Below are positions 29,561 through 44,656 of a stretch of DNA of 64,000 nt, piece by piece. Below the pieces are notes generated by a model. It was not told where the DNA came from. It did not search any database and saw only the letters and a list, made by a program, of their open reading frames with translations. Origin of the DNA: Elusimicrobia bacterium GWA2_66_18 (GTDB lineage Bacteria; Elusimicrobiota; Elusimicrobia; UBA1565; UBA9628). Position 1 is the stretch's first letter. Each line of letters starts with the position of its first letter. The DNA is taken from the NCBI GenBank assembly GCA_001799675.1, contig MGTX01000002.1:189878-253877 (forward strand), written 5' to 3'. Both the position numbers and the translations under genes were made by a program.

Positions 29561-32203
29561 ATGAGCGTCCGGCTCAGCTTCACCATGAAGATCGGGCTCC
29601 TCCTCGCGCTGCCGCTCGTCGGCTCGCTCGTGCCCATCCCCCTGGTCACGCGGTTCCTGGATCGGACCAAGACGGACAGCCACTTCATGAACGTGGCCGG
29701 ACGCCAGAGGATGCTGTCGGCGAGCATGCGCGATTGGGTCAACATGGTGGCCGTCGGCCAAGAGGAGGATCGCTCGGGCCTGCAAGATCGGATCGCGGCC
29801 TTCGATGAGGCGCTCGCCGCGATGGAGCGCGGAGGCTCCGTCCTGGGCGAGACGCTCGCCCCGCCTCCTGTGGAAATCGCAGCCCCTCTGGCCGCGGTAG
29901 GCGGTCTGTGGCGCAGGCTTCAACCGGACTTGGCCGCCATCGCCGAGCGGTCGCGCAAGGAGTTCCGCTTCCAGGCGGCCTACCGCCGCGCCAGGCCGGA
30001 AATGGAGAATCTGCGGGACCTGTCGCACCGGGTCGTCACGGTCTTCGAGGCGAGAAGCAGCCGTCTGCGCGCCGAGCTGCTGATGACGCTTCAAGTCATC
30101 GCGGGGCTGACCGGCCTCATCTTCCTGGCGGGCATCCTGCTCACCCGGCGCTACATCGTCCGGCCCCTCCTGCGCATCCACGCCGCGGCCAGGAGCATCG
30201 GTTCCGGGGACTTCACCCCGCATCTCGAGGTCTCGGCAACGGACGAATTGTCGGATCTCGCCCATGCCTTCAACGAGATGACTTCACGGATCCAGCGCCT
30301 CCTGGCCGCGCTGGACCTGAGCCGCAAGCACGCCGAGATCGTCGTCGCCAGCATGCCCGCGGGTCTTCTCGCCCTGAGCGAAGACCTCCATGTGCTTCGG
30401 GTGAACCGCTCTTTCCGCGAGGCCTTCGGCGTCGACGAGGCGGAACTCGCCCGCCGCCCCACGCTGACGGAACTCCTGCCGGTGGCGGGCCTTAAGGAGG
30501 CGGTCCTCGATGTCCTCTCCACGGGCCTGCCCAAGCGCGGCCTCCAACTGGACCTGGCCGCGAAGGACGGCTCGAAACGGTCCTTGCGGATCTCCATAGC
30601 GGGAACGCGGCTTGAAGAAGACGAACGGCTGGTGGTCGTGGTGGAGGACGTTTCCGAAAGCGAACGGATGAGCCGTGTCGCGACCGAGATGGGACGCCGC
30701 TATCATGAGATCATGGAGAACGCCATCGATGCCATCATCGTCATGGGTCAGGACGGCCGGATCTCCTATCTCAACGGGGCCGCGGAGAAGATGTTCGGCT
30801 ACGCGCGGCCCGAGATGCTGGGGCGGCCGGTCACGATGCTCATGCCGGCGCACTACCGCGAGGCCCACGAACGCGGAGTCCAGCGCTACTTGAGAACGGA
30901 GCAGTCCGTCATTCTGGGCCGCGTGACATTGGTCGACGGCCGGCGCCGCAACGGCGAGACGTTCCCCCTTGAACTGTCGATCAGTTCCTCACGTGCGGAC
31001 GATCAATTCGCGTTCACTGGAATACTCAGGGACGTCACCGAGCGCCGCAGGATCGAGGCGGCCCTGGCCGAGCGGGAGCTTCAGTTGCGCCAAGCTCAGA
31101 AATTGGATGCGGTCGGCAAGCTCGCGGGCGGGATCGCCCACGACTTCAACAATCTGATGACCGCCATCCTGGGATTTAGCGCCTTTCTTCTGCAAAATCT
31201 CAAGCCCGACGATCCGAACCGGGCGGACGTGCTGGGAATCGAGGCCGCGGGCAAGCGCGCGTCCGCCCTCACGAATCAGCTCCTGGCATTCAGCCGCAAG
31301 CAGTTGCTCCAGCCCAGGATCCTGGACCTCAATATCGTGGTTCAAGAGATCCTGAGCATGCTGCGGCGGCTCATCAGAGAGAACATCGAGCTGTCGCTCC
31401 GGCTTTCGGACCAGCCTCTGGTCGTCCGGGCGGACCGGGGGCAGATCGAACAGGTCATCATGAACTTGGTCCTCAACGCCAGGGACGCCATGCCCAAGGG
31501 CGGAAAGATCAGCATCGAGACCTCGGCCATCGAGCTTGGAGACGACCGCGCTCACCCCGGGTCTTACGTGACGCTGACGCTCAGCGACACCGGCGCCGGG
31601 ATGAGCCCGGAAGTGCAGGCGCATCTCTTCGAGCCTTTCTTCACGACCAAGGAGCTGGGCAAGGGGACGGGACTGGGCCTTGCCACGGTCTACGGCATCA
31701 TCGCTCAAAGCGGCGGTCACATCACGGTCGACAGCGAGGAGGGGCATGGATCGATCTTTAGACTCTACCTGCCCAAGGCCGGCGAGCGCTCTGAGAACGG
31801 CAAATCGGCGCCTCCCCAGCGGGATATCCCCCGGGGAGCGGGTGTGGTCCTGCTCGTCGAGGACGAACCCGCCGTCCTGGAGCTGGCGCGCCGCATCTTG
31901 ACGCAGAACGGTTTCACGGTGATCGCCACCGCAGACCCCCTGGAGGCGCTCGCCCTCTGCGAGAGCGAGAAGGAGCCCCTCCGGCTGCTCGTCACCGACA
32001 TGGTCATGCCCAAGCTCAGCGGCCTGGAGGTGGCTCGGCAAGTGCGGGACGCGCGGCCCTCGACCCCGGTGCTCTACATTTCGGGCTACACCGAGCACCC
32101 CGTCCTTCAACTGGACGACGAGGAACTCAAAAGCGCGTTCCTGCAAAAGCCCTTTACGCCGAGCGTCTTCCTGGAAAAAATCCACGAGCTCTTGGGCTCA
32201 TAG
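29561..32203 (+). CDS. Hybrid sensor histidine kinase (PilJ-like sensor, HAMP, two PAS, HisKA, HATPase, receiver)
   Basis: An 880-residue membrane kinase. TM1 is at about 10-30. The periplasmic part includes 'NVAGRQRMLSASM' (44-56), the hallmark of PilJ/NarX-type sensor helices. TM2 (about 174-196) leads into HAMP (about 197-250). Two PAS domains (about 258-368 and 380-495) follow, the second with a FixL-like 'SYLNGAAEKMFGY'. HisKA has H527 in 'GGIAHDFNNLM'; HATPase has N635/N639, 'DTGAGM' and 'GTGLGL'. A C-terminal receiver carries D813. The start at 29561 is chosen because TATAAT lies 7 bases upstream; the long upstream extension is antisense to the neighbouring gene. The PilJ-like sensor near pilus genes suggests surface or twitching-related sensing, but this is inference. 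Confidence 0.92.
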   Translation: MSVRLSFTMKIGLLLALPLVGSLVPIPLVTRFLDRTKTDSHFMNVAGRQRMLSASMRDWVNMVAVGQEEDRSGLQDRIAAFDEALAAMERGGSVLGETLAPPPVEIAAPLAAVGGLWRRLQPDLAAIAERSRKEFRFQAAYRRARPEMENLRDLSHRVVTVFEARSSRLRAELLMTLQVIAGLTGLIFLAGILLTRRYIVRPLLRIHAAARSIGSGDFTPHLEVSATDELSDLAHAFNEMTSRIQRLLAALDLSRKHAEIVVASMPAGLLALSEDLHVLRVNRSFREAFGVDEAELARRPTLTELLPVAGLKEAVLDVLSTGLPKRGLQLDLAAKDGSKRSLRISIAGTRLEEDERLVVVVEDVSESERMSRVATEMGRRYHEIMENAIDAIIVMGQDGRISYLNGAAEKMFGYARPEMLGRPVTMLMPAHYREAHERGVQRYLRTEQSVILGRVTLVDGRRRNGETFPLELSISSSRADDQFAFTGILRDVTERRRIEAALAERELQLRQAQKLDAVGKLAGGIAHDFNNLMTAILGFSAFLLQNLKPDDPNRADVLGIEAAGKRASALTNQLLAFSRKQLLQPRILDLNIVVQEILSMLRRLIRENIELSLRLSDQPLVVRADRGQIEQVIMNLVLNARDAMPKGGKISIETSAIELGDDRAHPGSYVTLTLSDTGAGMSPEVQAHLFEPFFTTKELGKGTGLGLATVYGIIAQSGGHITVDSEEGHGSIFRLYLPKAGERSENGKSAPPQRDIPRGAGVVLLVEDEPAVLELARRILTQNGFTVIATADPLEALALCESEKEPLRLLVTDMVMPKLSGLEVARQVRDARPSTPVLYISGYTEHPVLQLDDEELKSAFLQKPFTPSVFLEKIHELLGS

Positions 32204-32213
32204 CGCGCGAAAA

Positions 32214-32285
32214 AGCCGGGGATGGGATTCGAACCCACAACCTATCGCTTACGAAGCGATTGCTCTACCGTTGAGCTACCCCGGC
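32214..32285 (-). tRNA. tRNA-Thr (anticodon CGT)
   Basis: A 72-base cloverleaf. The acceptor stem is GCCGGGG paired with CCCCGGC, with a D arm GCTC..GAGC. The anticodon stem ATCGC/GCGAT encloses the loop TTCGTAA (anticodon CGT, codon ACG), and the T arm has TTCGAAT. CCA is not encoded. The 5' end directly follows the stop codon of the CheY-like gene on the same strand with no spacer, so it must be processed out of that mRNA. A short T-run follows it. Confidence 0.95.
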
Positions 32286-32651
32286 TCAGATTTTCTTGGC
32301 GGCGATGAGGGCCCGGACGCGCTTGAAATCAAGCGGCTTCTGGAGGAACGTCACCCCCATGAATTGTCGGCGCAGTTTGCCCGTCACATCCTTCTCGGCC
32401 ATGGCGGAGACGAGGAGGACGGGGATGGAGGCCGTGGCCGGATCGTTGCGCAGCTTGTTCAGCACGGCCACGCCGTTGGCGGAGGGCAGGTTGTAGTCCA
32501 GGATGATGAAGTCGGGACGCTTCTCCTGCGCCACCTTGAGTCCCTCCAAGCCATCTTGGGACCAGACGATCTCGTGCCGGTCCTCTTTGAGTTGCTGGCG
32601 CATGATGTTCGCCGCCAGCTCGTCGTCCTCTATTATAAGAACCATTGCCAT
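32286..32651 (-). CDS. Single-domain response regulator (CheY-like)
   Basis: A 121-residue receiver domain: acidic residues E8, D9, D10; phospho-acceptor D52 in 'ILDYNLP'; Ser in 'LLVSAMA'; Lys in 'LQKPLD'. It has no output domain. It lies just downstream of the Cache hybrid kinase on the same strand (32 bases), which probably passes phosphate to it. A second ATG at codon 3 could be the real start. Its stop codon abuts the tRNA-Thr gene. Confidence 0.9.
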   Translation of the reverse strand: MAMVLIIEDDELAANIMRQQLKEDRHEIVWSQDGLEGLKVAQEKRPDFIILDYNLPSANGVAVLNKLRNDPATASIPVLLVSAMAEKDVTGKLRRQFMGVTFLQKPLDFKRVRALIAAKKI

Positions 32652-32683
32652 GCGACTATGGTGTTATTTTTGTCGCCGTGCGG

Positions 32684-34861
32684 TCAAGGTTTCTCGTCCA
32701 GAAGGCGCCGGACGCTCTGGCGCAGGTCGTCGATGTCGAAGGGCTTGACCAGGTATTCGGAACTCGTCGAGTCGAAGAAATCCAAGACCTTCGCGTTGAG
32801 CATGTCTCCGGTCACGAAGAGCATGCGCGTAGACTCCAGGCGCCCCTGCAGCGCCAGTCGCGCGTGGAGGTCCGGCCCTGTGGCGTGCCCCATCGCCATG
32901 TCCGAGACGACGAGGTCGTAGACGTTGCGCTCCAAGAGGGCCAGCGCCTCGCCGCCGTCGCGCGCGATCTCGACGTCGTCGCCGTCCGCCCGCAGCAGGC
33001 GGGCGATGAGCTCCGCGATGTCCTTCTCGTCGTCGGCGACGAGGATGCGCTTGCCGGGCACGGCCGGATACGACGCCGGCTCCTGGACCGCCTCCAGCAG
33101 GTCCAGGTCTTTTTGGGCGGCGATGGGGATTTCCACGCGGAAGACGCTCCCCCGGCCTTCCCCGCTCTCCAAGGAGATGTCGCCGCCGTGCTCTCGCAGG
33201 ATCTGCCGGCAGATGGACAAGCCCAGCCCCGTCCCGCGCCCCGCTTCCTTGGTGGTATAGAACGGCTCGAAGATCTTTTCCTTGATCTCGGGCGCCACGC
33301 CGCCGCCGTTGTCCGAAATCTCGATGAACGCGCGGCGCCCGTCGCTCCCGGTTCTCACCGAGAGCCTCTTGCCCTGCGGGGCGCGGGCCATCTCGCGCAT
33401 GGCGTCGCAGGCGTTGCCGATGAGGTTCACCAGGACCTGAACGACCTGCTGGAAGTCGCCGATGATATCGGGGGGCTCGCTCGAGAGAGCCTTCTCCACT
33501 AGGACGCGCTCGGTCTTGGCGAGGCGGTATTCGAGCAGTTCCAAAGCCGAGTCGACCGCTCTATTCAAATCGACCTTCTTGCGCTCGCGCCCGCTTTGGC
33601 GGACGAAGAACAAAAGATTGTCGACGATCTTGCGGCAGCGGAACACGTTCTGGTAGACCCGCGTCAGGTCCTCCTGCATCTGGGGCGGACAGCCGTCATG
33701 CAGGGCGTTCTGCACGTAGCCCGAGATCGCCTGCAGAGGATTGCTGATCTCGTGAGCGACCGCGGAGATCAACTGTCCCACCGCGGAGAGTTTCTCGGCC
33801 TGGATCAGCTGCGACTGGAGCTGCGTGGTGCGCTCCAGGTTCTGCTCCAGGCGCCGGGCCATCTCGTTGAAAGAATCCGAAAGCGTCCTCAATTCGCCCG
33901 TTCCCTCCTCCTGGATGCGGTGGCCGAAATCGCCCTCGCCGATCTTGCGGGCGGCCGAGACCAGGACGGCGATGGGGCGGGTGATGGAGCGCACGAGAAG
34001 CAGGAGGATCGCGACTAGGACGGCGAGCCCCAGCAGGGAGGTCAGGAGCGCCACGTTCTTGACCTTGCGCAGAGGGCCGAGGAACTCCTCCAGGGGCGCC
34101 TCGACGATGACGGCCCAGGGCCGACGCCTCAGGAGACTCGACGCGACGAGCAGTCCGGAGTCGCCTCCCTCGCGCGGGCGAGCCTCCAGGCGGCGTCCAT
34201 CGGAGGCCTGGACATAGGCCCGACCGCGCCGTCCCATCTCGACGTTCCTCAGCAGGCCGCGCAGCTGCGCAAGATCGTAGCACAGGACCAGGACCCCTTT
34301 GAGCTGCCGGAGTTCGTCATGGACGGGCTTGGAAAAATAGATGACGCTCCCCTCTCCCTCGAGCGCCTCGATGGATGAGGTCCACCACCCGCCGGGGCCG
34401 GCCGCGCGGGCCTTGATGAAATAGTCGGCGCGCGCGTGCGCCGGCCGAGAGGCGAGCGCACGCGAGCGTATCGCGCAGACCTCGCGGCCCCGCCGGTCGA
34501 GATAAAGGATCTGGGCGTAGACGCCGTTGCGGTCGGCGAAGTTGCGCAGGTAGCGCTCGAGTTCTTTGCGATAGGCCTCGGCCTCGTCGTCGAGCTGGAA
34601 ATCGACGTTGCGGTAGTAGTCCGCGATGAGGGGGGTCTCGGCGAGGGTGAACAAGTCGCGGCGGCGCTGGTCGAGGAAGTCGTCGAGTCCGGCGGCCGTG
34701 CGCTGCGCTAGGAACTGCATCTCCTTGTCGACGGCGCTCAGCAGTTCCCGACGCGCCATGCTGTATTGAAGCCAAACGATCACGCTCACTCCCAGGATGA
34801 CGATCGGGAGAATGCTGGCGAGCAGCTTCCACGACAGGCGCGAGGGAAGTCGGAGTCTCAT
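32684..34861 (-). CDS. Hybrid sensor kinase (Cache-type sensor, HAMP, HisKA, HATPase, receiver)
   Basis: A 725-residue protein from the ATG at 34861; a TTG at 34888 would add nine residues before the first membrane helix and is less likely. TM1 is at about 13-31. A periplasmic Cache-like domain (about 40-265, including 'YAQILYLDRRGREVC') follows, then TM2 (about 270-292) and HAMP (about 293-345). HisKA has H370 in 'AVAHEISNPLQ'; HATPase has 'ENxG'-type boxes ('LVNLIGNACDAM', 'DNGGGVAPE', 'GTGLGLSI'). The C-terminal receiver has 'LVVSDMAMGHATG'; the usual Pro after DMxM is missing, so its activity is slightly uncertain. Cache domains bind small organic ligands outside the cell, which fits the solute-binding protein encoded upstream. 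Confidence 0.9.
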   Translation of the reverse strand: MRLRLPSRLSWKLLASILPIVILGVSVIVWLQYSMARRELLSAVDKEMQFLAQRTAAGLDDFLDQRRRDLFTLAETPLIADYYRNVDFQLDDEAEAYRKELERYLRNFADRNGVYAQILYLDRRGREVCAIRSRALASRPAHARADYFIKARAAGPGGWWTSSIEALEGEGSVIYFSKPVHDELRQLKGVLVLCYDLAQLRGLLRNVEMGRRGRAYVQASDGRRLEARPREGGDSGLLVASSLLRRRPWAVIVEAPLEEFLGPLRKVKNVALLTSLLGLAVLVAILLLLVRSITRPIAVLVSAARKIGEGDFGHRIQEEGTGELRTLSDSFNEMARRLEQNLERTTQLQSQLIQAEKLSAVGQLISAVAHEISNPLQAISGYVQNALHDGCPPQMQEDLTRVYQNVFRCRKIVDNLLFFVRQSGRERKKVDLNRAVDSALELLEYRLAKTERVLVEKALSSEPPDIIGDFQQVVQVLVNLIGNACDAMREMARAPQGKRLSVRTGSDGRRAFIEISDNGGGVAPEIKEKIFEPFYTTKEAGRGTGLGLSICRQILREHGGDISLESGEGRGSVFRVEIPIAAQKDLDLLEAVQEPASYPAVPGKRILVADDEKDIAELIARLLRADGDDVEIARDGGEALALLERNVYDLVVSDMAMGHATGPDLHARLALQGRLESTRMLFVTGDMLNAKVLDFFDSTSSEYLVKPFDIDDLRQSVRRLLDEKP

Positions 34862-34894
34862 TTTTTCTGCGGGCCGACGGAGTCGCAAGGGCGA

Positions 34895-35026
34895 TTAGAA
34901 TCGATGGATCAACTGGAGCGTCGTGCGCGACCCCACGAAACGGTTCTGTCCCCAGAACTCGATGGGGTGAGAGAGCATGGCCGTCAGGCCCGGCCCCTGA
35001 TAGGCCAGCAACGCCGCGCGATTCAT
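34895..35026 (-). CDS. 43-residue ORF coupled to the cupin gene; beta-barrel-like tail
   Basis: A short frame starting with ATG at 35026 that overlaps the cupin stop (ATGA) and ends at 34895. The peptide runs from 'MNRAALLAYQGPGLTAML' to 'SRTTLQLIHRF'. Alternating polar and apolar residues and a terminal Phe resemble the last strands of an outer-membrane beta-barrel. It may be a remnant of such a gene or a real small protein. I do not recognise a family. The coupled start supports translation. Confidence 0.4.
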   Translation of the reverse strand: MNRAALLAYQGPGLTAMLSHPIEFWGQNRFVGSRTTLQLIHRF

Positions 35027-35430
35027 GCTCTCTCCAGTTTGATGGCGTCCTTGGCCGCGCGAGCGCCGGTTCCGGCATCCGTCCCCGGGAAAGCGTCGGG
35101 TTTTCTCGGGTCCAGCGGCGGTGAAAAGAGGGACAGCGCCGAGACTCCGCTGCGTCTCGTCACGAATTGATGTTGCATCCCCGGCGGTATCTCGAACATG
35201 TCCCCCGCCCGCAGGCGCGCTCGACGGCCGTCGAGATAGGCCGTGGCCGAACCCTTGAGGACGAACACGAACTCCGAGGTGAAGCGATGATACAGCGCCG
35301 GGGTCGACGAGAAAGGGGGCAGAGCCTCGTGCAGCAGGCAGACGCGGTAGGGTTCGCGCGGCACGGGAAGAAACCGCAGGGTCAAGCCGCCCGCCACGCG
35401 CTCACGGGGCAAGCGGCGCAATGACTGCAT
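35023..35430 (-). CDS. Small cupin-domain protein
   Basis: A 135-residue protein with a single conserved cupin barrel: motif 1 'HRFTSEFVFVLKGSATAYLDG' (shortened relative to the classic HxH, only one early His plus Glu) and motif 2 'LRAGDMFEIPPGMQHQF' with the late metal-ligand His. Such proteins bind a metal and a small organic ligand and act as isomerases, dioxygenases or sugar-binding regulators. The ATG at 35430 follows the solute-binding protein stop by 19 bases. Function cannot be told from the sequence, but it belongs to the same operon as the ThDP enzyme and the Cache kinase. Confidence 0.8.
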   Translation of the reverse strand: MQSLRRLPRERVAGGLTLRFLPVPREPYRVCLLHEALPPFSSTPALYHRFTSEFVFVLKGSATAYLDGRRARLRAGDMFEIPPGMQHQFVTRRSGVSALSLFSPPLDPRKPDAFPGTDAGTGARAAKDAIKLERA

Positions 35431-35449
35431 GCGGGCCGAGCCGGAAGAC

Positions 35450-36955
35450 TTAGCGGTCTTCATGGACCTCGGCGGCGTAGAAATAAGGCATGCCCGTGAC
35501 ATAGGAGTGGAAGTCGACGCCGCGCCTGACGCCGCAGGTCTGCAGGCGCTGATAGGTGAAGATGCTGAGCGCCTCGTCATGGACATAACGGTCCAGCGCG
35601 CGCGCCAAGCGGTCGCGTTCGCTCTCGTCGATGGTCGCGGTCATTTGCTCCAACATCCCGTCGAATTTCTCATCCTTGGCGAGGCTGAAGGGCGATTTGG
35701 AATAGATGACGAGCGCCTGGAGGAAGTAGCTGTGCGCCATGGTGTCGGGGACGTCCCCGACGGCGAGATCGAAAATGGGATTGCTGAAATAGGCGCCCAA
35801 CTGGCTCTCGGTCATGGTCGAGATGTGGAAGCGCACGCCGATATCCTGCAGATTCGCCGCGATGATCTTGGCCGGTCGCAGGGCGTTCTCGTTGACCATT
35901 GCGCTGAGCTCGAAACCATGCGGATACCCCGCGCGCTTGAGCAGCGCCTTCGCCTTTTGGGGATCATAAGGATACGGCTTCAGCTCCGGGTCGTGCCCGG
36001 GCTCGCCCGGCATGCTCAAGGTCGCGATAGGAATCCCGTTGCCCAGGAGGTCATATCTGATCAGGGAATCCTTGTCCACGCCGTAGTTGAGCGCCCGGCG
36101 GACGTCGCGGCTGCCGAGAGGGCCGCGATTGAAGCGCAGGGACGGCGCGAGCGTGTAGAATATCTTCGCCTTGAGCACTTTGGTGTCGCGCCGGGCCTGA
36201 ACGGCCTGCGTTTGAGTGCCGGGCACATCGAAGAGCAGATTGATCTCTCCGTTGAAGAGCGCCTCGATTTGACGGGGCTTTTCGATGAACGCAAACACGA
36301 GCTGATCGATCTTCGGATATCCGCTCATCCAATACTCGCGATTGGCGTCCAGCACGATCCTGCGGCTGAGATCCCGACTTCCGAAGCGAAACGCCCCGGT
36401 GCCCACCGGCTCGCGCGCGAAGCGTTCTTCCCCGACCTCGCCGAGGTAGCGGGGAGGAACGATCAACAAGCCCCACGCCAGCCGGTTGAGCAGCAGGCCG
36501 TCCGGGCGCGTGGTCTCGATGTCGATGGTCTGCGTGTCGATGACCGAGACTTTCCCGATGGAGTCGAACAACCCCCGTCCGGGGAATCCGGTTTTCGGGT
36601 CGAGCAACCGCGAGATCGAGAAGCGGGCGGCCTGCGCGTCGAAGGGCTCGCCGTTGTGGAATCGCACCCCTTTGCGCAGTTGGAAGCGGACCTTGAGCGG
36701 GCTGAGGCGCTCCCACGAGACGGCCAGCGCCGGCTCGACTCGGCCTTCGGGATCAAAACGGACGAGACCCTCGAAAATCTGCTGGTTGATGATGTGGTTC
36801 TTCTGCGAAAACTCCTTGTGCGCGTCAAGCGTGGGCGGAGGCGCGACGTCGTTGCAGACGATGAGACGCTTCGGCCGATGCGCGGCCGCCGCGTCCTGCC
36901 GCGACAAGACGAGTCCAAGCGCCGCCGGCAGAAGAACGCAGCGGCCGATCTTCAT
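35450..36955 (-). CDS. Periplasmic solute-binding protein, family 5 (Dpp/Opp-type), without a transporter
   Basis: A 501-residue protein. It has a signal peptide of about 23 residues ending 'DAAAA', then a family-5 extracellular binding fold ('PALAVSWERLSPLKVRFQLRKGVRFHNGEPFDA', 'RRALNYGVDKDSLI', 'YPYDPQKAKALLKRAGYPHG'). The family binds peptides, nickel, glutathione or oligosaccharides for ABC import. No permease or ATPase gene lies nearby, so it may serve a distant transporter or hand a ligand to the Cache kinase encoded two genes downstream. The start at 36955 begins a proper signal peptide; 10 bases separate it from the ThDP enzyme stop. A CATAAT box upstream could be its own promoter. 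Confidence 0.88.
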   Translation of the reverse strand: MKIGRCVLLPAALGLVLSRQDAAAAHRPKRLIVCNDVAPPPTLDAHKEFSQKNHIINQQIFEGLVRFDPEGRVEPALAVSWERLSPLKVRFQLRKGVRFHNGEPFDAQAARFSISRLLDPKTGFPGRGLFDSIGKVSVIDTQTIDIETTRPDGLLLNRLAWGLLIVPPRYLGEVGEERFAREPVGTGAFRFGSRDLSRRIVLDANREYWMSGYPKIDQLVFAFIEKPRQIEALFNGEINLLFDVPGTQTQAVQARRDTKVLKAKIFYTLAPSLRFNRGPLGSRDVRRALNYGVDKDSLIRYDLLGNGIPIATLSMPGEPGHDPELKPYPYDPQKAKALLKRAGYPHGFELSAMVNENALRPAKIIAANLQDIGVRFHISTMTESQLGAYFSNPIFDLAVGDVPDTMAHSYFLQALVIYSKSPFSLAKDEKFDGMLEQMTATIDESERDRLARALDRYVHDEALSIFTYQRLQTCGVRRGVDFHSYVTGMPYFYAAEVHEDR

Positions 36956-36965
36956 ATCGCCGCTA

Positions 36966-38750
36966 TTATGCCTTATTAAAAAACCGCTCCAGCGTCTCGA
37001 TCCGGACGGCCGCGGGAGGGCAGGCGTTCGCGTCGATGCGGGCGTCGATGACGGTCGGGCGGTCGGCCGCCAGGCCCATGCGGATGAACTTTTCAACTTC
37101 GCCGGGACGCTCCGCCTTGAAGGCCAGCGCCCCGAGGGCCTCGGCCATCTTGACGATGTCGAGCGGCCGGCGGAAGAGGCCGGTGTTGAACTTGCCCTTG
37201 AACTGCCGGGTCTCGCCCAGATGGACCATGCCGAATCCGCCGTTGTTCAAGACCACCCAGATGACCGGGATGTCGTTTTCAACGGCGGTGTGGACTTCCA
37301 TGCCGTTCATGGCGAAGGCCCCGTCGCCGACCAGCGCGGCCACGGGGCGATGCGGCGCGGCCAGCTTGCCGCCGATCGCGGCGGCCACCCCGTGGCCCAT
37401 GGAACCGAAGCCCATGTTGATGAAGAAACTCCCCGGCAGGCGGACCTCGAAATAATGGATGGCCCAAGCCATGACGTTGCCGATGTCGACGAAGAGGACG
37501 GCGTCGTCGGGCAGTGCCCGGCGCATCTCTGTGACGACGCGCTGAGGCTTCAAGGGGAGCGAGACGTCGTCCATGCTGCCCGCGTCGATGAAGCGGGGAT
37601 GCGTCCGCTTCACGTCCTGCACCGCGATCAGACGAGCGGCGAGATCCGGCCCCGGGTCCATTCGTTGGACCTCGCGCTCAAGCTGAAAGCCGATCTCCAT
37701 GATGATCCGCTTCGCGTCGCCCACCAGCCCCACCCTCGCCGGATAGTTCCTCCCGATCTCGGTCGGGTCGACGTCGATCTGCAGCAGGGAGCGGCCCTGG
37801 GCCAAGCGCGGGTCCCACGCGTGGGTGGAGGCCTCGCCCAGGCTGCTGCCGACGACCAAGAGGAGGTCCGTTTCGCCGGAGAGCAGGATCGCGTCGGCCT
37901 GAGGCGAGCCGGCCAGGCCGAAGACGCCCAGCGAAAGGGGATGGTCCTCCGGGAAAACGCCCTTGGCCTTCGGCGTCGTCGCCACGGGGATGGCGAGGCG
38001 CTCGGCCAGAGTCCTCAGCTCCTTGTAAGCCCGCGCAAGGTGGACCCCGTAGCCGGCCAGGATGGCGGGCCGGCGCGCGGCGAGGAGGAGATGCGCCGCC
38101 TCGCGCACGCTGTGGCGGTCGAAGAGTTCGGGCTGCGGACGGTACTGCTCGGGACGCCACACGTCATCGGCCACGGGGCGCTTCATCATGTCGGCGGGAA
38201 CGTTGAGGTGGATGGGGCCCGGCCGTCCGGTGAGGCTTCTTCGCAGCAGGAAACGCGTCATGTCGCCCATTTTCCCGGGAGCGACGAGCATGAGGCTGCA
38301 TTTGGTGACGGCTCTGTAGAGCTCCACGATATCGATGCCCAGAGGAGAGCTTTCCTGCGCCGCCGCCTTGCCGAACGCCGCCGTGGCGACCTGGGCGGTC
38401 ACGATCAAGACCGGCACCGAGTCGCGGTGGGCGCAGGCGATCGCGGTCAGGGCATTGGTGGCTCCGGGGCCCGCCGTCGTGCAGCAGAGCCCCAGGCGCC
38501 CGCTCACCCGGGCGTAGCCGTCCGCCATGAACGCCGCGCCCTCCTCATGCTTGGCGATGATCGGGCGGATCCGTCCGCTCTCGAAGAGCGCCTCATACAG
38601 CGGCATCAAGGGACCCCCGGGGAGGCCGAAGATGCACTGCGATCCTTCCGCCTCCAGATATTTGAGCAGAAGGCCGACGGCCGTGATCGCGACGGCTGGA
38701 GCGCTGGGGGCTTCCGGGCGATCCAGCACGGCCGTCCGCATCGGGTTCAT
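36966..38750 (-). CDS. Acetolactate synthase-like ThDP-dependent enzyme
   Basis: A 594-residue member of the acetohydroxyacid synthase/glyoxylate carboligase/sulfoacetaldehyde acetyltransferase superfamily. The N-terminal pyrimidine-binding domain has the catalytic Glu in 'AKHEEGAAFMADGYAR'. The central domain has FAD/nucleotide-fold features, and the C-terminal pyrophosphate-binding motif is 'GDGAFAMNGMEVHTAVENDIPVIW..NN'. All key residues for activity are present. No small regulatory subunit (ilvN) and no other ilv genes are nearby, so it is unlikely to be the housekeeping enzyme. It is coupled (ATGA) to the HTH-receiver gene upstream, placing its expression under a signal-transduction regulator. 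The substrate is unknown. Confidence 0.85.
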   Translation of the reverse strand: MNPMRTAVLDRPEAPSAPAVAITAVGLLLKYLEAEGSQCIFGLPGGPLMPLYEALFESGRIRPIIAKHEEGAAFMADGYARVSGRLGLCCTTAGPGATNALTAIACAHRDSVPVLIVTAQVATAAFGKAAAQESSPLGIDIVELYRAVTKCSLMLVAPGKMGDMTRFLLRRSLTGRPGPIHLNVPADMMKRPVADDVWRPEQYRPQPELFDRHSVREAAHLLLAARRPAILAGYGVHLARAYKELRTLAERLAIPVATTPKAKGVFPEDHPLSLGVFGLAGSPQADAILLSGETDLLLVVGSSLGEASTHAWDPRLAQGRSLLQIDVDPTEIGRNYPARVGLVGDAKRIIMEIGFQLEREVQRMDPGPDLAARLIAVQDVKRTHPRFIDAGSMDDVSLPLKPQRVVTEMRRALPDDAVLFVDIGNVMAWAIHYFEVRLPGSFFINMGFGSMGHGVAAAIGGKLAAPHRPVAALVGDGAFAMNGMEVHTAVENDIPVIWVVLNNGGFGMVHLGETRQFKGKFNTGLFRRPLDIVKMAEALGALAFKAERPGEVEKFIRMGLAADRPTVIDARIDANACPPAAVRIETLERFFNKA

Positions 38751-39337
38751 CGGCGCGCGAAGACTCCCTGCTCCAGCTTCAGCAGTTCCGCGGCTTTGGC
38801 GAGGAGTTCGTCGTGGTCCAAGGGCTTGCGGAAGAAGGCGTCGACCTTGACCTCGGCGAGCTTCTTTTCGGTCGAAGGAGTGTTCCTGCCGGAGATGGCG
38901 ATGACCTTGATGCCTCGGGTCTCGGGCTTTGTTTTCAGCACGCGACAGACCTGGACGCCGTCCATCTTCGGCAGCACGACGTCGAGGATCACCAGATCCG
39001 GCGGCTGCTGGCCGATGCGGATCAAGGCCTCTATGCCGTCATGGCAGACCTCCGTCTGGAAAAGCTTGGGAGGACGACCGAAGGCCCCCTCGAGGACCCG
39101 CGCGACCTCCACGTCGTCGTCTACGATCAGAACCCTCATTAGGGACGAGAGTTCGGAAGGCAGCGCGATTCGCAGGCGCTGGAGGAACACGGCGAGGTCT
39201 TCCCTGGTCACGCGGTGATGCCCGCCCACCGTCTGATAGGATCGCAGCTCGCCGTCGTTGATCCACTTGGCCACGCTCGATGGATACACGTCGCAGAACC
39301 GGGCGATGTCATGGGTCGTATAGGTCTTCTCTGGCAT
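38747..39337 (-). CDS. Excisionase/MerR-type HTH domain fused to a receiver domain
   Basis: A 196-residue regulator. Residues 5-53 form a MerR/excisionase/BldC-like winged helix ('YTTHDIARFCDVYPSSVAKWI', 'GGHHRVTREDL'). Residues 67-190 are a receiver with D73-D75, phospho-acceptor D119 in 'ILDVVLP', Ser and Lys ('FFRKPLD'). The DNA-binding part precedes the receiver, the reverse of most response regulators. Three perfect-length 9-bp direct repeats lie in its own leader, consistent with autoregulation by a BldC-like protein that oligomerises on direct repeats. It heads the operon of ThDP enzyme, solute-binding protein, cupin and Cache kinase. Confidence 0.9.
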   Translation of the reverse strand: MPEKTYTTHDIARFCDVYPSSVAKWINDGELRSYQTVGGHHRVTREDLAVFLQRLRIALPSELSSLMRVLIVDDDVEVARVLEGAFGRPPKLFQTEVCHDGIEALIRIGQQPPDLVILDVVLPKMDGVQVCRVLKTKPETRGIKVIAISGRNTPSTEKKLAEVKVDAFFRKPLDHDELLAKAAELLKLEQGVFARR

Positions 39338-39344
39338 GGATGTT

Positions 39345-39371
39345 CTCTTTACTCCTTTTACTCTCTTTACT
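39345..39371 (-). promoter_or_regulatory. Three tandem 9-bp direct repeats (putative operator)
   Basis: Plus-strand reading: CTCTTTACT, CCTTTTACT, CTCTTTACT at 39345-39353, 39354-39362 and 39363-39371, back to back. They occupy the leader between the -10 box (39387-39382) and the start codon (39337) of the HTH-receiver gene and also contain its AAAGGAG ribosome site. This is a likely binding site for the encoded HTH protein, so binding could block both transcription and translation. Confidence 0.6.
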
Positions 39372-39381
39372 GCGTTTGCTG

Positions 39382-39410
39382 ACTATACCTTGTTCGGGCG
39401 TCGCCGTCAA
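39382..39410 (-). promoter_or_regulatory. Promoter of the HTH-receiver/ThDP operon
   Basis: Minus strand: TTGACG (39410-39405), a 17-base spacer, TATAGT (39387-39382). The leader to the ATG at 39337 is about 40 bases and contains the three 9-bp repeats. The -35 region lies back to back with the divergent promoter at 39423. Confidence 0.65.
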
Positions 39411-39422
39411 CCGTAAATTGCG

Positions 39423-39428
39423 TATAAT
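39423..39428 (+). promoter_or_regulatory. Leaderless -10 box of the winged-helix response regulator
   Basis: TATAAT ends 7 bases before the ATG at 39436, so the start codon is at the expected transcription start. This fixes the true start and rejects an upstream in-frame start at 39280 that would read through the divergent promoter region. Confidence 0.5.
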
Positions 39429-39435
39429 CACGCCC

Positions 39436-40131
39436 ATGGAACGACAGAGGGTGCTGGCCGTCGACGACGACGAGGAGATGCGCCGTTTCTATGAGAGATT
39501 CTTCCTCTGTCTCCAAAACGAGGGCTTCACGGCGACGGTCGTGCCGGACGCGGAGCAAGCCCTGGGCCTGCTGGCCCTCGATCCGGTGGACATCGTCGTC
39601 CTCGATTGGGGCCTGCCGGGCATCTCGGGCGCCGGCCTCGCCAAGGCCCTGCGCGCCAGCGCCAAGACCCGCTCGGTGGGAATCCTCATGGTCACCGGCC
39701 GATCCTCTCCCGCCGAGACGGTCCTCGCCCTGGAGTCGGGAGCCGACGACCATCTCGCCAAGCCCTTCGACGAGAAGGTCCTTCTTGCGCGCCTGCGCAG
39801 CCTGGCGCGGCGGCGCGCGCTGACCTTCGACTCGCATCTGGTGAGCCGCTTCCCGGGACTGGAACTCGACCAGGAGGCCGATCTCCTGCGCGTGGACGGA
39901 CGCCTCGTCCGGCTGACGCCCAAGGAGATGTGCCTTTTCAAGATATTCCTGCGCAGGCCGAATATGCTCCACTCCCGCGTCTATCTCTGGGAAGCGGCCT
40001 GGGGCTACGAGGCCGAACGCTGGGACCACCTCATCGACGCGACGATCTCATCCCTGCGCCGCAAACTCGGCCCCCGCTGGGGGACGAGCCTCAAGGCTCA
40101 CAAGGGCGCGGGCTACGCCCTGGAGATATAG
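39436..40131 (+). CDS. OmpR/PhoB-family winged-helix response regulator
   Basis: A 231-residue protein: receiver with D10-D12, phospho-acceptor D57 in 'VLDWGLPG', Thr in 'LMVTGRS' and Lys in 'LAKPFDE'. A C-terminal winged helix follows ('LVRLTPKEMCLFKIFLRRPN', 'DHLIDATISSLRRKLG', 'KGAGYAL'). It is a DNA-binding regulator, probably paired with the PAS histidine kinase 65 bases downstream. It is divergent from the HTH-receiver operon. Its stop codon TAG is the first part of a copy of the AGGAGTGTGTCCGAG repeat. Confidence 0.93.
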   Translation: MERQRVLAVDDDEEMRRFYERFFLCLQNEGFTATVVPDAEQALGLLALDPVDIVVLDWGLPGISGAGLAKALRASAKTRSVGILMVTGRSSPAETVLALESGADDHLAKPFDEKVLLARLRSLARRRALTFDSHLVSRFPGLELDQEADLLRVDGRLVRLTPKEMCLFKIFLRRPNMLHSRVYLWEAAWGYEAERWDHLIDATISSLRRKLGPRWGTSLKAHKGAGYALEI

Positions 40132-40196: not shown

Positions 40197-41288
40197 ATGA
40201 CGCCCATGCCTCCCCCGCAGAAGAAGGCCGGCCAAAACGCAGAGGGCCTCCCGGACCCCGAGCGGCTCTTAGCGCTCTCCTCGGACATGCTCGGCGTCAT
40301 GGGCTTCGACGGACTCCTCCGGACGGTCAACCCCGCCTGGCAATGCACCCTGGGCCGCGCTCCCGGCGAACTCCTCGGCAGACCGCTGCTCGATCTAGTC
40401 CATCCGGAGGACCGAGAGAACGTCCAAGAGACCCTCAGGAAGCTCTCGAGCGTCGAGGGCGGAGAGACCTGCTTGGTCAACCGCTGTCTCTGCCGGGACG
40501 GCAAACTGAAATGGCTCCTCTGGCGCCTGACGGCCTCTCCCGCGATGGGGCTCTATTACCTCGCCGCCAGCGACATCACGCCGCAGAAGGCCCTCCATGT
40601 GAAGCTGCTCCGCTTGCAGATGGACTCGCAGATCGGACGCATCCTGGCCGGAGTGGCGCATGACTTCAACAACATCCTCTCCGTCATCGGCGGCTGCGCC
40701 GTCATGATGGCCGCGGATCGCGAGATGAGCGCTCAGCAGGCCCGCGATCTGGAGGACATCACCAACGCGGCGCAGCGGGGCGCCGAGCTCGTCCGGGTCA
40801 TGATCGACCTTTGCCGTCCCGAGGGCGCCGGCGAGCGGCGCGACTCGGACCTCAACGAGGTCGTGCTCCGCATGGAGCGGCTGCTGCGCCTTCTGCTCCG
40901 CAAGAATATCCGCCTGTCCGTCAGCCTCGCCGAAGGGCTGGGACGCGTCAGGCTCGACTCCGGACGTCTGGATCAGATCCTGTTGAACCTCGTCGTCAAC
41001 GCCCGGGACGCCATGCCCGATGGAGGGAGCATCACGCTCAAGACGCTCCCGGCCGAGGCGGGCGCTCGTCTCGTCGTCCGCGACACGGGAGTCGGCATCC
41101 CGCCGGACGTCCAAGCCCGCATGTTCGAGCCTTTCTTCACCACGAAGCCCCGGGGGAAGGGGACGGGACTGGGGCTGTCGACGATCCAGGAGATCCTCGC
41201 GCACTGCGGCGGGAAGATCTCCGTCTCCAGCCGCCCGGGCGAGGGCGCGACGCTGGAACTGTTCCTTCCCCGGGCCGACGCCCGCTGA
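40197..41288 (+). CDS. PAS-domain sensor histidine kinase
   Basis: A 363-residue soluble kinase: PAS domain (about 22-128, 'VMGFDGLLRTVNPAWQCTLG', 'LLDLVHPEDRE'), HisKA with H155 in 'GVAHDFNNILS', and HATPase with N-box 'LLNLVVNARDAM', 'DTGVGIPP' and 'GTGLGLST'. It is of the NtrB/hybrid-like class. The ATG at 40197 is chosen because GGGGAGG lies 6 bases upstream (40184-40190); a TTG at 40182 is less likely. It probably signals to the response regulator just upstream. It converges with livF with one base between the stop codons. Confidence 0.92.
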   Translation: MTPMPPPQKKAGQNAEGLPDPERLLALSSDMLGVMGFDGLLRTVNPAWQCTLGRAPGELLGRPLLDLVHPEDRENVQETLRKLSSVEGGETCLVNRCLCRDGKLKWLLWRLTASPAMGLYYLAASDITPQKALHVKLLRLQMDSQIGRILAGVAHDFNNILSVIGGCAVMMAADREMSAQQARDLEDITNAAQRGAELVRVMIDLCRPEGAGERRDSDLNEVVLRMERLLRLLLRKNIRLSVSLAEGLGRVRLDSGRLDQILLNLVVNARDAMPDGGSITLKTLPAEAGARLVVRDTGVGIPPDVQARMFEPFFTTKPRGKGTGLGLSTIQEILAHCGGKISVSSRPGEGATLELFLPRADAR

Positions 41289-41289
41289 A

Positions 41290-42018
41290 TCAGTCCAGGC
41301 CGAGGTAAGCCTTGCGCACGGCGGGGTCCTTGAGGAGAGTCGCGGCGTCCTGCGCGACCGCGACCATCCCGGTCTCCAGCACATAGGCGCGCGCGGCGGC
41401 GCGCAGCGCGCGCTTGGCGTTCTGCTCGACGAGGAGGACGGTCACGCCTTCTTTGTTGATAAGCCCGATGATCTCGAAGATCTTATCGACCACCACGGGC
41501 GCCAGGCCCATGGAGGGCTCGTCGAGCATCAGGAGCTTGGGCGCGGCCATCAACGCGCGGCCCATGGCCAGCATCTGCTGTTCGCCGCCCGAGAGGGTTC
41601 CGCCCAGCTGGCAGCGGCGCTTGCCGAGGACCGGGAAGAGGTGGAAGACGTGGTCGTACTCGCGGGACAGGTCCTTCTCGCTCCGGCAGAAAGCGCCCAT
41701 CTCGAGGTTCTCCATCACGCTCAGGCGCGGGAATATGCGCCGTCCTTCAGGGACCAGCGAAAGCCCCATGCGCATGATCCGGTGGGGCGGCAGTCCGGCG
41801 AGGTCTCGGCCCTGAAAGGTCACCCTCCCCTTCTCGGGCTTGAGCAGGCCCGCGATGATCTTCATCATAGTGGTCTTGCCCGCGCCGTTGTTGCCGATGA
41901 GGGCGACGACCTCGCCCGCGCGGACTTCGAGGCTCACGCCCTTGAGCGCGCGGATCTTCTTGCCGTAGATTGCGTGGACATCGTCGAGCGAGAGCATCGC
42001 GGGGGCCTTCTCGCTCAC
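41290..42018 (-). CDS. livF: Branched-chain amino acid ABC transporter ATP-binding protein LivF
   Basis: A 242-residue ABC ATPase: Walker A 'GNNGAGKTT', Q-loop region, signature 'LSGGEQQMLAMGRAL', Walker B 'LLMLDEPSMGLAP' and H-loop 'LLVEQN'. The LivF subtype is shown by 'SLVPEGRRIFPRLSVMENLEMGA'. With LivG it powers import of leucine, isoleucine, valine or related ligands. The GTG start overlaps the livG stop (GTGA). It is the last gene of the liv operon. Confidence 0.93.
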   Translation of the reverse strand: MSEKAPAMLSLDDVHAIYGKKIRALKGVSLEVRAGEVVALIGNNGAGKTTMMKIIAGLLKPEKGRVTFQGRDLAGLPPHRIMRMGLSLVPEGRRIFPRLSVMENLEMGAFCRSEKDLSREYDHVFHLFPVLGKRRCQLGGTLSGGEQQMLAMGRALMAAPKLLMLDEPSMGLAPVVVDKIFEIIGLINKEGVTVLLVEQNAKRALRAAARAYVLETGMVAVAQDAATLLKDPAVRKAYLGLD

Positions 42019-42794
42019 GCGCCCTCCCGGCCCAGGTAGGCCTCGATGACGCGCGCGTCTGCGACCACTTGGCGCGGCTTGCCCTCGGCGATCTTGACGC
42101 CGTAGTCGAAGACGAAGACGCGATCGGAAATGTCCATGACGACCCTCATCTGGTGCTCGATGAGGAGGACCGTCACCCCCCGCTCGCGCACCCGCCGCGC
42201 CAAGGCGACAAGGTCCGAGCATTCCGTCTGGTTCATGCCCGCCGTCGGCTCATCGAGGATGAGGAGCTTCGGTTCGCTGGCCAGGGCCCGGGCGACCTCG
42301 AGCTTGCGCTGGGCCCCGTAGGGCAGGTTCTTGGCAAGCTCGTTGCCAAGCGCGCGCAGGCCGACGAAGTCCAGAAACTCCTTGGCCAGGGACTCGACGG
42401 CGCTCTCTTCCTCCCGGTATGCCCGCGTGCGCAGCAGCGGGCCCAGAAGGAACTGGCTCGTGCGCGAGTGGCGGCCGACCATCACGTTCTCGAGCGCGGT
42501 CATGCACGAGAAGAGGCGGATGTTCTGGAAGGTGCGCGCCACGCCTCGGGCCACGATATCGTGGCTGGGCAGGCCGCGGATCGGCCGGCCTTCAAAGAGG
42601 ATGTCGCCGCGCGTGCCCGGGTAGACGCCGGTCAGCACGTTGAAGAAGGTCGTCTTGCCGGCGCCGTTGGGCCCGATGACGCTGACGATCTCCCCCTCGT
42701 GGATGGAGAGGTTGACCGAGTCGACGGCCTTCAAGCCGCCGAAGTGCTGGGCAAGGTCGCGGACCTCCAGCAGGGCCGGTCCTGGGCCGGTCAT
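42015..42794 (-). CDS. livG: Branched-chain amino acid ABC transporter ATP-binding protein LivG
   Basis: A 259-residue ABC ATPase: Walker A 'GPNGAGKTTFFN', signature 'LPYGAQRKLEVARAL' (the LivG form of LSGGQ), Walker B 'LLILDEPTAGMN' and 'LLIEHQMRVVM'. The phrase 'GVARTFQNIRLF' is typical of LivG. The ATG at 42794 overlaps the livM stop (ATGA). It pairs with LivF as the heterodimeric motor. Confidence 0.93.
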   Translation of the reverse strand: MTGPGPALLEVRDLAQHFGGLKAVDSVNLSIHEGEIVSVIGPNGAGKTTFFNVLTGVYPGTRGDILFEGRPIRGLPSHDIVARGVARTFQNIRLFSCMTALENVMVGRHSRTSQFLLGPLLRTRAYREEESAVESLAKEFLDFVGLRALGNELAKNLPYGAQRKLEVARALASEPKLLILDEPTAGMNQTECSDLVALARRVRERGVTVLLIEHQMRVVMDISDRVFVFDYGVKIAEGKPRQVVADARVIEAYLGREGA

Positions 42795-43753
42795 GAGGAG
42801 AGTTCCGACTCGCGCCGCGCCGAAGGCAGCAGGCCCTGCGGACGGAACAAGGTCGCCAACACCAGGATGAGGCCGAAGAAGAGGTAGCGGTAGTTGATCC
42901 ACTCGGCCGAAAGGGTCCACTGCATGAGCGGCGGCAAGCCCACCAGGATCAGCGCCCCCAGGAGCACGCCCGCAATGGAGCCCATGCCGCCCAGGACCAC
43001 GATGGAGACGACCAGGACGGACTCCCAGAACACGAAAGACTCGGGGGTGACGAACTGCTCCCACAGCGCGAAGAGGGCGCCGGCCAGTCCCGCAAAGGCC
43101 GCCGAGAGGGTGAAGGCCAGGAGCTTGTACTCCCGGACCGGGATGCCTGACAGGCGGGCGGCGACCTCGTCTTCGCGGATGGCGACCCAGGCCCGGCCCA
43201 CGCGGGAGGACTCTATGCGCCGGGACGCGACGACGGCCAAGGAGACGCCCGCGAGGATCAGGAGGTAGTATTGGACGTTGGGGTCCGGGGAAATGCAGGC
43301 GAGAGGCCGCCAGGGACGCACCTGCATGCCCTTGGGGCCGTTGGTCAGTGAGTCGAGGTTGTTGATGACCAAGCGCGCGATCTCCCCGAATCCCATGGTG
43401 ACCACGGCGAGGTAGTCTCCGCGCAGGCGCAGGATGGTCAGGCCGAGCAGGGCGCGCATGGCCAGGGTGATGGCGACCGCCAGGACGATGGCCAGCGGAG
43501 CCGGGACATGGGCGCGCATGGCGATGGCCGTGGTGTAGGCCCCGATGGCGTAAAAAGAGATGAAGCCCAGGTCGAAGAGCCCCGCGTAGCCCAGGGTGAA
43601 GTTGAGCCCGAGGCCCAGGATCATGAAGAGCCCGATCACGCCCGCCACGCGCACGAGGTAGGGCTGCTCGACCGCCTGGGCCAGGAACGGGAATGCGGCG
43701 GCCGCCGCGAGGGCGGCCCCGAGCGCCCAGCGCGAACCCAGGAGCTTCTTCAT
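42791..43753 (-). CDS. livM: Branched-chain amino acid ABC transporter permease LivM
   Basis: A 320-residue membrane protein with about nine hydrophobic helices and the LivM signature segments 'LGLGLNFTLGYAGLFDLGFISFYAIGAY', 'ALGLTILRLRGDYLAVVTMGFGEI' (in variant form) and 'GPKGM'. It forms the translocation pore with LivH. It begins directly after the livH stop codon (TAA then ATG). Confidence 0.93.
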   Translation of the reverse strand: MKKLLGSRWALGAALAAAAAFPFLAQAVEQPYLVRVAGVIGLFMILGLGLNFTLGYAGLFDLGFISFYAIGAYTTAIAMRAHVPAPLAIVLAVAITLAMRALLGLTILRLRGDYLAVVTMGFGEIARLVINNLDSLTNGPKGMQVRPWRPLACISPDPNVQYYLLILAGVSLAVVASRRIESSRVGRAWVAIREDEVAARLSGIPVREYKLLAFTLSAAFAGLAGALFALWEQFVTPESFVFWESVLVVSIVVLGGMGSIAGVLLGALILVGLPPLMQWTLSAEWINYRYLFFGLILVLATLFRPQGLLPSARRESELSS

Positions 43754-44653: not shown

Positions 44654-44656
44654 GGC

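Follow-up and report, generated by a model that had tools for sequence, protein, structure and literature searches.

Why should the gene for a thiamine diphosphate (ThDP)-dependent enzyme be lodged in one compact row with genes for a response regulator, a solute-binding protein and a sensory histidine kinase? This question is raised by a locus in the 2.79-Mb draft genome (94.7% complete) of Elusimicrobia bacterium GWA2_66_18, found within a stretch of 64,000 nucleotides (contig MGTX01000002.1 of assembly GCA_001799675.1, positions 189,878 to 253,877) that is referred to here as the window. Read 5' to 3' on the minus strand, the unit consists of a promoter-like site, followed by the genes for a helix-turn-helix (HTH_17)-receiver protein (HTH-REC), the ThDP enzyme, a family 5 solute-binding protein (SBP_bac_5; SBP5), a cupin, a 43-amino-acid open reading frame (ORF), a dCache hybrid kinase, a CheY-like protein and a tRNA-Thr; the spacing between its protein genes ranges from a 14-nt overlap up to a 33-nt gap.

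The gene set is a real conserved unit. We tentatively suggest, with a confidence that stays somewhat short of even, that the unit as a whole is a circuit that regulates itself and in which synthase and receptor serve a signal derived from an acyloin. An earlier note on this DNA, prepared from its letters and reading frames, had already viewed the seven frames as one sensory-metabolic unit; their positions, their common strand and their short overlaps and gaps are confirmed here (with domains assigned by Pfam, the small ORF not being scanned separately), and the interpretation built upon them is supported in part. Two observations go beyond it: an array of 9-bp direct repeats precedes the first gene, and the same enzyme family occurs beside other sensory modules in other phyla. 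As the earlier note had supposed, no description of a system with this gene set was found in the literature searched.

Conservation of the gene set

Neighbourhoods were compared in two scans, one of the organism's own genome and 57 relatives (58 in total) searched with the ThDP enzyme, and one of named genomes, in which the best 80 of 304 loci were kept; the two scans overlap in genomes, and their counts are not independent. The hidden Markov models (HMMs) of the neighbours came from the very 80 loci that were then used for counting them, and blastp with the window proteins gave a picture similar to that of the HMM counts.

A close copy of the enzyme (47-65% identical, E <= 1e-120) is present in 30 of the 57 other genomes, a number that leaves out an enzyme fragment at a contig end in genome G040. 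The pairing of the HTH-REC and ThDP enzyme genes, which overlap by 4 nt in the window, proved a good anchor for the neighbourhood search proposed in the earlier note: in 25 of these 30 relatives, an HTH-REC frame lies on the same strand within 100 nt upstream of the enzyme gene. An SBP5 gene is found within 8 kb of the enzyme in 27 of the 30, and in the three relatives without it (L077, L080, L092) the contig stops in or just after the enzyme gene or in the next gene.

Among the 80 named-genome loci, 43 belong to an Elusimicrobiota-type clade. HTH-REC is present in 34 of these (28 on the same strand within 250 nt), SBP5 in 36, the cupin in 24, a kinase resembling that of the window in 25 (any histidine kinase in 30), a PF00891 methyltransferase in 21 and a PF13557 outer-membrane protein in five; many of the misses are short contigs, several of them below 10 kb. 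At enzyme identities of about 46-74%, gene order, strand and narrow spacing are shared across families, and the neighbours recur in other families and, partly, in other phyla; the genes are not scattered in the relatives. Across the 80 loci, a signalling gene directly adjoins 46 of the 76 called enzyme genes on the same strand; among unlabelled genes the figure is 71 of 711 (Fisher p 7e-23, without regard to relatedness).

The ThDP enzyme

The enzyme gene (36966..38750, minus strand) had been taken to encode an acetolactate-synthase-like protein with an intact active site. The latter holds, with E69, D476 and N503 all present; the family assignment has to be revised, as sequence comparison points to a BbmA-type enzyme, putatively an alpha-hydroxy-beta-keto acid or acyloin synthase. 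Its matches are BbmA (624.5 bits), CsmA (289 bits) and acetolactate synthase isozyme I (254 bits). In a residue tally that left out four Elusimicrobiota-type rows (L115, L116, L118, L173), the catalytic Glu is kept in 39 of 42 Elusimicrobiota rows (the others have a gap or X) and in nearly all rows of the family, Asp476 is kept in all family rows, and position 503 is Asp in 12 of the 42.

The residue that is mutated in BbmA-G484F aligns with G512 of the window enzyme. Position 512 is Gly in 42/42 Elusimicrobiota rows, in 4/4 rows of the BbmA clade, in 15/15 from Desulfobacterota and Nitrospirota and in 2/2 from Wallbacteria; it is Leu, Phe or Met in the 16 STAS-linked rows described below, and Trp in both acetolactate-synthase-like outgroup rows, only one of which (G002, beside a ketol-acid reductoisomerase (KARI) gene) is independently supported as an acetolactate synthase. 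The outgroup's Arg is replaced by Ser303 in the window enzyme and by Ser in most family rows. In acetolactate synthase these two residues, Trp and Arg, belong to the acceptor pocket.

BbmA is a homologue of the acyloin-forming synthase CybE, according to PMC12395478; the name is printed there as BpmA, which we read as the BbmA of the PDB. PMC9822442 ascribes related chemistry to NzsH and to the sattazolin enzymes of Clostridium beijerinckii, and no primary paper on BbmA was found in the literature searched. A Brevibacillus migulae protein (L124) that is essentially BbmA, with a match of 1306 bits over its length, is 50% identical to the window enzyme; its gene stands beside one for a protein like beta-ketoacyl-acyl carrier protein synthase III (KASIII).

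Among the NCBIfam models, acetolactate synthase gave the best match, with 402.2 bits at a cut-off of 866, and the enzyme reached the cut-off of none of the 25 models listed (54 matched). It is the sole protein of the genome above the TPP_enzyme_N cut-off (26.8 bits; next match 20.3). No credible KARI was found in the 94.7%-complete genome, the best KARI_N match scoring 23.3 bits and spanning positions 4-66 of 165. Nominally, 26 of 30 genomes exceed the KARI_N cut-off of 20.6, but 25 of these do so with a partial match to the domain of no more than 31 bits. In G002, a KARI_N match of 146.5 bits lies beside an enzyme 33% identical to that of the window. No IlvN was recognised beside the enzyme among the window genes, the genome not having been searched with an IlvN model. 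Identity as an acetolactate synthase was rejected on the NCBIfam scores, on the exchanges of Trp for Gly and Arg for Ser, and on the lack of a credible KARI. We infer that the enzyme is an acyloin-type synthase akin to BbmA and CybE. Even if a signalling function should fail, the locus would offer a likely chemistry and a mode of regulation for an enzyme clade that matches acetolactate synthase models best.

The HTH-receiver regulator and its repeat array

The first gene of the unit (38747..39337, minus strand) encodes a response regulator of 196 amino acids that, by its Pfam and PDB matches and its conserved residues, combines a BldC-like HTH_17 domain (PF12728, 36.5 bits) with a receiver. 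The receiver is complete, with D74, D119, S/T149 and K171 kept in 35/35 rows. The HTH part matches the PDB entries 6ama (24.9 bits, E 1.8e-4) and 6amk (24.1 bits), which carry the label 'putative DNA-binding protein' in the PDB table and which we take to be BldC. According to the BldC paper (PMC5859096), where the code 6AMA appears once, BldC lies head to tail on direct-repeat DNA, with 9 bp bound by each subunit.

Upstream of the gene lies the sole promoter-like site in 32000-39700, a sigma-70-like TTGACG-17-TATAGT (39382..39410, minus strand), with similar boxes in near relatives. Right after its -10 box, and thus between this box and the start codon, four 9-bp direct repeats, CAGCAAACG CAGTAAAGA GAGTAAAAG GAGTAAAGA, form a putative operator (39346..39381, minus strand). 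In 47 distinct 60-nt regions upstream of HTH-REC genes, lag-9 self-identity is 0.395 as against 0.275 in shuffles (z = 14), a statistic that includes related genomes, uses mononucleotide shuffles and contains a few mis-called starts (L084, L107, L157). None of the other lags between 4 and 16 exceeds |z| 2.8. The lag-9 signal is present in the near set (z 10.7, 16 regions) and in the far set (z 9.2, 31 regions), while 568 regions upstream of other genes at the same loci reach 0.277 against 0.270 (z 2.5); a self-identity of at least 0.5 is found in 8 of the 47 HTH-REC regions and in 0 of the 568 controls.

Given this 9-nt array and the BldC-like HTH domain, the most likely mode of action of HTH-REC is head-to-tail assembly on its own promoter, which the receiver would govern; the placement of the array after the -10 box favours repression as the outcome. 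A wider regulon was sought in the own genome and in 19 genomes of the genus and was not found. The array has no second match in its own genome at up to 2 mismatches, and a stricter pattern, AGYAAACNAAGYAAACNAAGYA, which fails to match the window's own array, occurs in 5 of the 19 genus genomes, with all nine matches just before an HTH-REC gene; control patterns read backward gave one match in the own genome (G000) and one each in three genus genomes. The own genome also encodes a second HTH-receiver protein, 34% identical (G000:C13:91515-92072, L096), and copies similar to it are present in other genomes of the genus.

The binding protein, the kinase and the cupin

The gene for the binding protein (35450..36955, minus strand) had been noticed as an orphan without a transporter, and its Pfam assignment, a tree and a permease search agree with this. 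In the tree, the 37 SBP5 proteins of such units (that of the window and 36 others) fall on one side of a branch with a Shimodaira-Hasegawa-like approximate likelihood ratio test (SH-aLRT) support of 99, the genome's nine other SBP5 proteins lying on the opposite side, two of them encoded beside Dpp-like permease genes on contig C4; like the other trees, this one is of a quick kind, and long branches meet at the split. A profile of the unit proteins scores 696 bits for the window copy as against 21-84 bits for the nine others. A tblastn search of the window and of loci L063-L178 with the genome's two Dpp-like permeases gave no match. A role as a Dpp/Opp transport component was rejected on the tree and the permease search. 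Two Wallbacteria units with otherwise different genes also carry an SBP5 of this type. The genome holds ten SBP_bac_5 loci in total, and SBP5 genes stand beside BPD_transp_1 permease genes at one place only, on contig C4.

The kinase (32684..34861, minus strand), a Cache hybrid kinase in the earlier note, has the architecture dCache_1-HAMP-HisKA-HATPase-REC in Pfam, and its dCache_1 domain scores 68.8 bits (cut-off 45). Kinases of relatives keep a dCache-like sensor in the sensor alignment; their inner parts vary, with a GAF-PAS insert in forms of 1,000 amino acids. According to PMC7584622, the dCache domains of PctA, TlpQ and KinD bind autoinducer-2 (AI-2), so it is plausible, but no more than that, for a domain of this kind to read a small hydroxyketone. 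The cupin (35023..35463, minus strand) is a single-domain protein by Pfam in which H59, E64 and H98 are conserved (alignment of 25).

The enzyme family beyond the Elusimicrobiota

An enzyme tree of 85 rows, made with a quick method, splits by the type of neighbour, and across the enzyme family linkage to signal transduction is common, not universal. One clade of 16 comprises Bathyarchaeota, Methanophagales, Aerophobetes, Verrucomicrobia, Armatimonadetes and others; a STAS gene stands within 13 nt before the enzyme gene in 14 of these loci, and an HATPase_c_2 gene lies nearby in 14. The STAS proteins (L133, L135, L138, L140, L143, L145-L147, L149, L151, L153, L156, L160, L161) resemble RsbV and, mostly together with an RsbW-like HATPase_c_2 protein, form what looks like a partner-switch module tied to a metabolic enzyme of the BbmA-like family.

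A second clade, of 15 mostly from Desulfobacterota and Nitrospirota, has kinases nearby in 11 loci, ABC_sub_bind proteins in eight, citrate-synthase-like genes in 11 and KASIII-like genes in three. Pairs of genes, mostly for about 270 amino acids each, recur near the enzyme (L158:7229-8847, L164, L166, L168, L170-L172, L176-L178); they belong to one family with weak or no similarity to PF00285, as if a citrate-synthase-like enzyme had been split in two. The BbmA clade consists of four loci (L124, L136, L144, L163) from Brevibacillus, Ktedonobacteria and Nannocystis, with a KASIII-like gene in all four. Its place among the Elusimicrobiota enzymes in the tree, though on long branches, is a hint of horizontal transfer.

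A proposed circuit and its alternatives

How might these parts work together? By its kinship with BbmA and CybE and by its pocket residue, the ThDP enzyme would join two alpha-keto acids to an alpha-hydroxy-beta-keto acid or an acyloin, which in many relatives a methyltransferase or another enzyme might then modify, a step missing from the window genome. The product, to which we would ascribe a signal role, would leave the cell and be bound in the periplasm by the dedicated family 5 binding protein; the dCache hybrid kinase would read the bound product, and phosphate would pass to the receiver of HTH-REC. It is from gene order alone that we infer this sensing of the enzyme's own product and the passage of phosphate to HTH-REC. 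The BldC-like domain may then assemble head to tail on the four 9-bp repeats and set the level of synthase and receptor, with the direction of control perhaps as outlined above, while the cupin, judged by its conserved His/Glu/His, probably modifies or removes the molecule.

Several findings weigh against this proposal. In the subclade of L115, L116 and L118, a kinase stands beside the enzyme without HTH-REC, SBP5 or cupin, on 19.7-kb loci in two cases, and no locus of the BbmA clade (0/4) has a kinase or SBP5 within 8 kb; the enzyme hence does not always come with the gene set. Kinases and receivers abound in Elusimicrobiota relatives, which makes linkage to a kinase a weak argument by itself. 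The Ser303 found where acetolactate-synthase-like enzymes have their pocket Arg leaves the substrates unpredicted. The best PDB match of the HTH part is a putative cobalamin-binding protein (8jbs, 28.2 bits) and not BldC, and the 1,000-amino-acid kinases of relatives reach only 25-37 bits for dCache_1 at the Pfam cut-off of 45. With 0.7 promoter-like sites expected from shuffles of the region, the match to the promoter is not significant by itself, and the box is supported mainly by its recurrence before HTH-REC in near relatives. The missing methyltransferase and a broken outer-membrane gene (see below) mean that the unit of the window could be decaying. Finally, the sensor could read a nutrient and not a self-made product.

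The last of these points leads to the strongest competitor, a sensor-controlled biosynthetic operon that makes a secondary metabolite, for instance an antimicrobial, and senses an outside cue such as a nutrient or a competitor's compound, not the product; we consider this a real possibility, although well below an even chance. The characterised relatives found (CybE, NzsH, the sattazolin enzymes) make natural-product precursors, the extra enzymes vary from unit to unit, the four loci of the BbmA clade combine a KASIII-like neighbour with the lack of kinase and SBP5, and SBP5 is a family of broad ligand range. However, the co-occurrence of SBP5 with the enzyme in 36 of the 43 loci, its grouping apart from the genome's other SBP5 proteins and its presence in two Wallbacteria loci with otherwise different genes are more easily explained if this protein recognises something tied to the enzyme. 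A different use of the same sensors, in which SBP5 and kinase respond to an imported substrate (keto acid, peptide or aromatic compound) by switching on the ThDP enzyme that metabolises it, strikes us as unlikely: SBP5 proteins commonly serve uptake, and a PF13557 protein (for Pfam, putatively of a phenol degradation pathway) is present in five of the 43 loci, but the Dpp-like permeases lack matches in the window and the fetched loci, the SBP5 of the unit stands apart from those linked to permeases, and the nearest match of the enzyme is a synthase.

That the enzyme is simply the organism's acetolactate synthase for branched-chain amino acids, with incidental neighbours, is very improbable. 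It would fit the best NCBIfam models and the enzyme's standing as the only such protein above the Pfam cut-off in the genome, yet it is contradicted by the NCBIfam cut-offs, the exchanged pocket residues, the lack of a credible KARI and the conserved neighbours. Chance clustering, for which the many receivers and kinases of this genome and its relatives might be invoked, is refuted by the neighbourhood data, since order, strand and short gaps recur across families; a dedicated repeat array at the unit's promoter likewise speaks against it.

A broader version of the proposed synthase-plus-receptor circuit can be formulated, which we regard as doubtful: BbmA-like ThDP enzymes might be the signal synthases of a previously unseen form of chemical communication in bacteria and archaea, in which every lineage would join a common acyloin-forming core to a sensory module of its own and lineage-specific tailoring would yield private signal variants. 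The modules would be the BldC-like receiver regulator with SBP5 and dCache kinase in Elusimicrobiota, the STAS/HATPase switch in archaea, Verrucomicrobia and Armatimonadetes, and the kinase with ABC_sub_bind in Desulfobacterota and Nitrospirota. ThDP-made signals across bacteria and archaea would be a larger finding than one synthase-plus-receptor circuit.

Relation to known systems

Known types of signal synthases are LuxI, LuxS and CqsA. The alpha-hydroxyketone quorum-sensing systems CqsA/CqsS and LqsA/LqsS resemble the window unit in that a synthase gene lies near a histidine kinase gene and in the predicted product class, a hydroxyketone. CqsA and LqsA are pyridoxal phosphate (PLP)-dependent enzymes, and we know of no binding protein in their circuits; the window unit, in contrast, has a ThDP enzyme, an SBP5 and a dCache sensor. 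With LuxP/LuxQ the unit shares the combination of a periplasmic binding protein with a membrane kinase, but LuxP is a homologue of ribose-binding protein (PMC7584622), whereas the window protein belongs to SBP5. The dCache receptors for AI-2 have the dCache_1 domain in common with the window kinase, a domain that alone does not tell the ligand. With Dpp/Opp/Nik ABC transporters the unit has the binding-protein family (PF00496) in common; it differs from them in its lack of a permease and in the separation of its SBP5 from those of the genome that are linked to permeases.

BbmA shares with the window enzyme similarity over the full length, the ThDP site and the Gly that replaces the Trp of acetolactate synthase, while the loci of its own clade have the KASIII-like neighbour and neither kinase nor SBP5. 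The BldC family of Streptomyces is likened to the regulator by the HTH match and would have 9-bp direct-repeat sites in common with it; BldC, however, is a protein of 68 residues according to the paper on it, whereas the window domain is fused to a complete receiver, and the repeat array of the window was found at one promoter only. The unit provides a testable case of a BldC-type DNA-binding domain under phosphorylation control. If the proposed circuit is true, a phylum known mostly from draft genomes would have a chemical signalling circuit of its own, built on a ThDP enzyme instead of a LuxI-, LuxS- or CqsA-type synthase, and searches anchored on the enzyme family could lead to similar circuits in archaea and further uncultured lineages.

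Variable parts and flanking genes

In many relatives, a methyltransferase gene (Methyltransf_2 plus Dimerisation) is located between the enzyme and SBP5 genes; in the window only 10 nt separate these two genes, and the best match for this methyltransferase in the genome has 21 bits. The SBP5 gene overlaps the cupin gene by 14 nt, which in turn overlaps the small ORF (34895..35026, minus strand) by 4 nt; 33 nt lie between this ORF and the kinase gene, or 6 nt if the kinase starts with the TTG at 34888. Over 34 of 37 residues (91.9%), the small ORF is identical to the C-terminus of L073:188-1087, a PF13557 protein of 299 amino acids (169.5 bits), and it is accordingly a 3' relic of such an outer-membrane protein gene; its interpretation as a conserved peptide was rejected. 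In the nearest relative, L099 (enzyme 72-74% identical), the outer-membrane gene is still complete, and the methyltransferase gene and one for a B12 radical-SAM protein are present as well. Extra enzymes vary between units (PF00891 and other methyltransferases, B12 radical SAM, short-chain dehydrogenase), and enzyme and receptor genes recur. In L115, L116 and L118, a beta-propeller (pyrroloquinoline quinone (PQQ)-like) gene precedes the enzyme gene and a GAF kinase gene follows it (Pfam on L115 only).

After a gap of 32 nt, the kinase gene is followed by that for the CheY-like single receiver (32286..32651, minus strand; Pfam), whose end is directly abutted by tRNA-Thr(CGT) (32213..32286, minus strand); a terminator-like hairpin lies beyond the tRNA at 32203-32182. 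Neither the CheY-like gene nor the tRNA turned up as a recurring part in the neighbourhoods of relatives, and both were dropped as core parts. The seven-gene set of the earlier note stands with respect to its frames and domains; the small ORF and the CheY-like gene do not belong to the conserved set, and the methyltransferase of 21 of the 43 loci is absent from it.

On the other side, the 98-bp intergenic region 39338-39435 is common to the unit and a divergent OmpR-type response regulator gene (39436..40131, plus strand; Pfam), which occupies the same place in the loci of 10 of the 30 relatives and in L097. It is followed by a gene for a PAS histidine kinase (40197..41288, plus strand; Pfam). 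Adjoining this regulator-kinase pair is a LivF-G-M-H-J-like branched-chain amino acid transport operon (41290-45814; Pfam), in a genome without a credible KARI.

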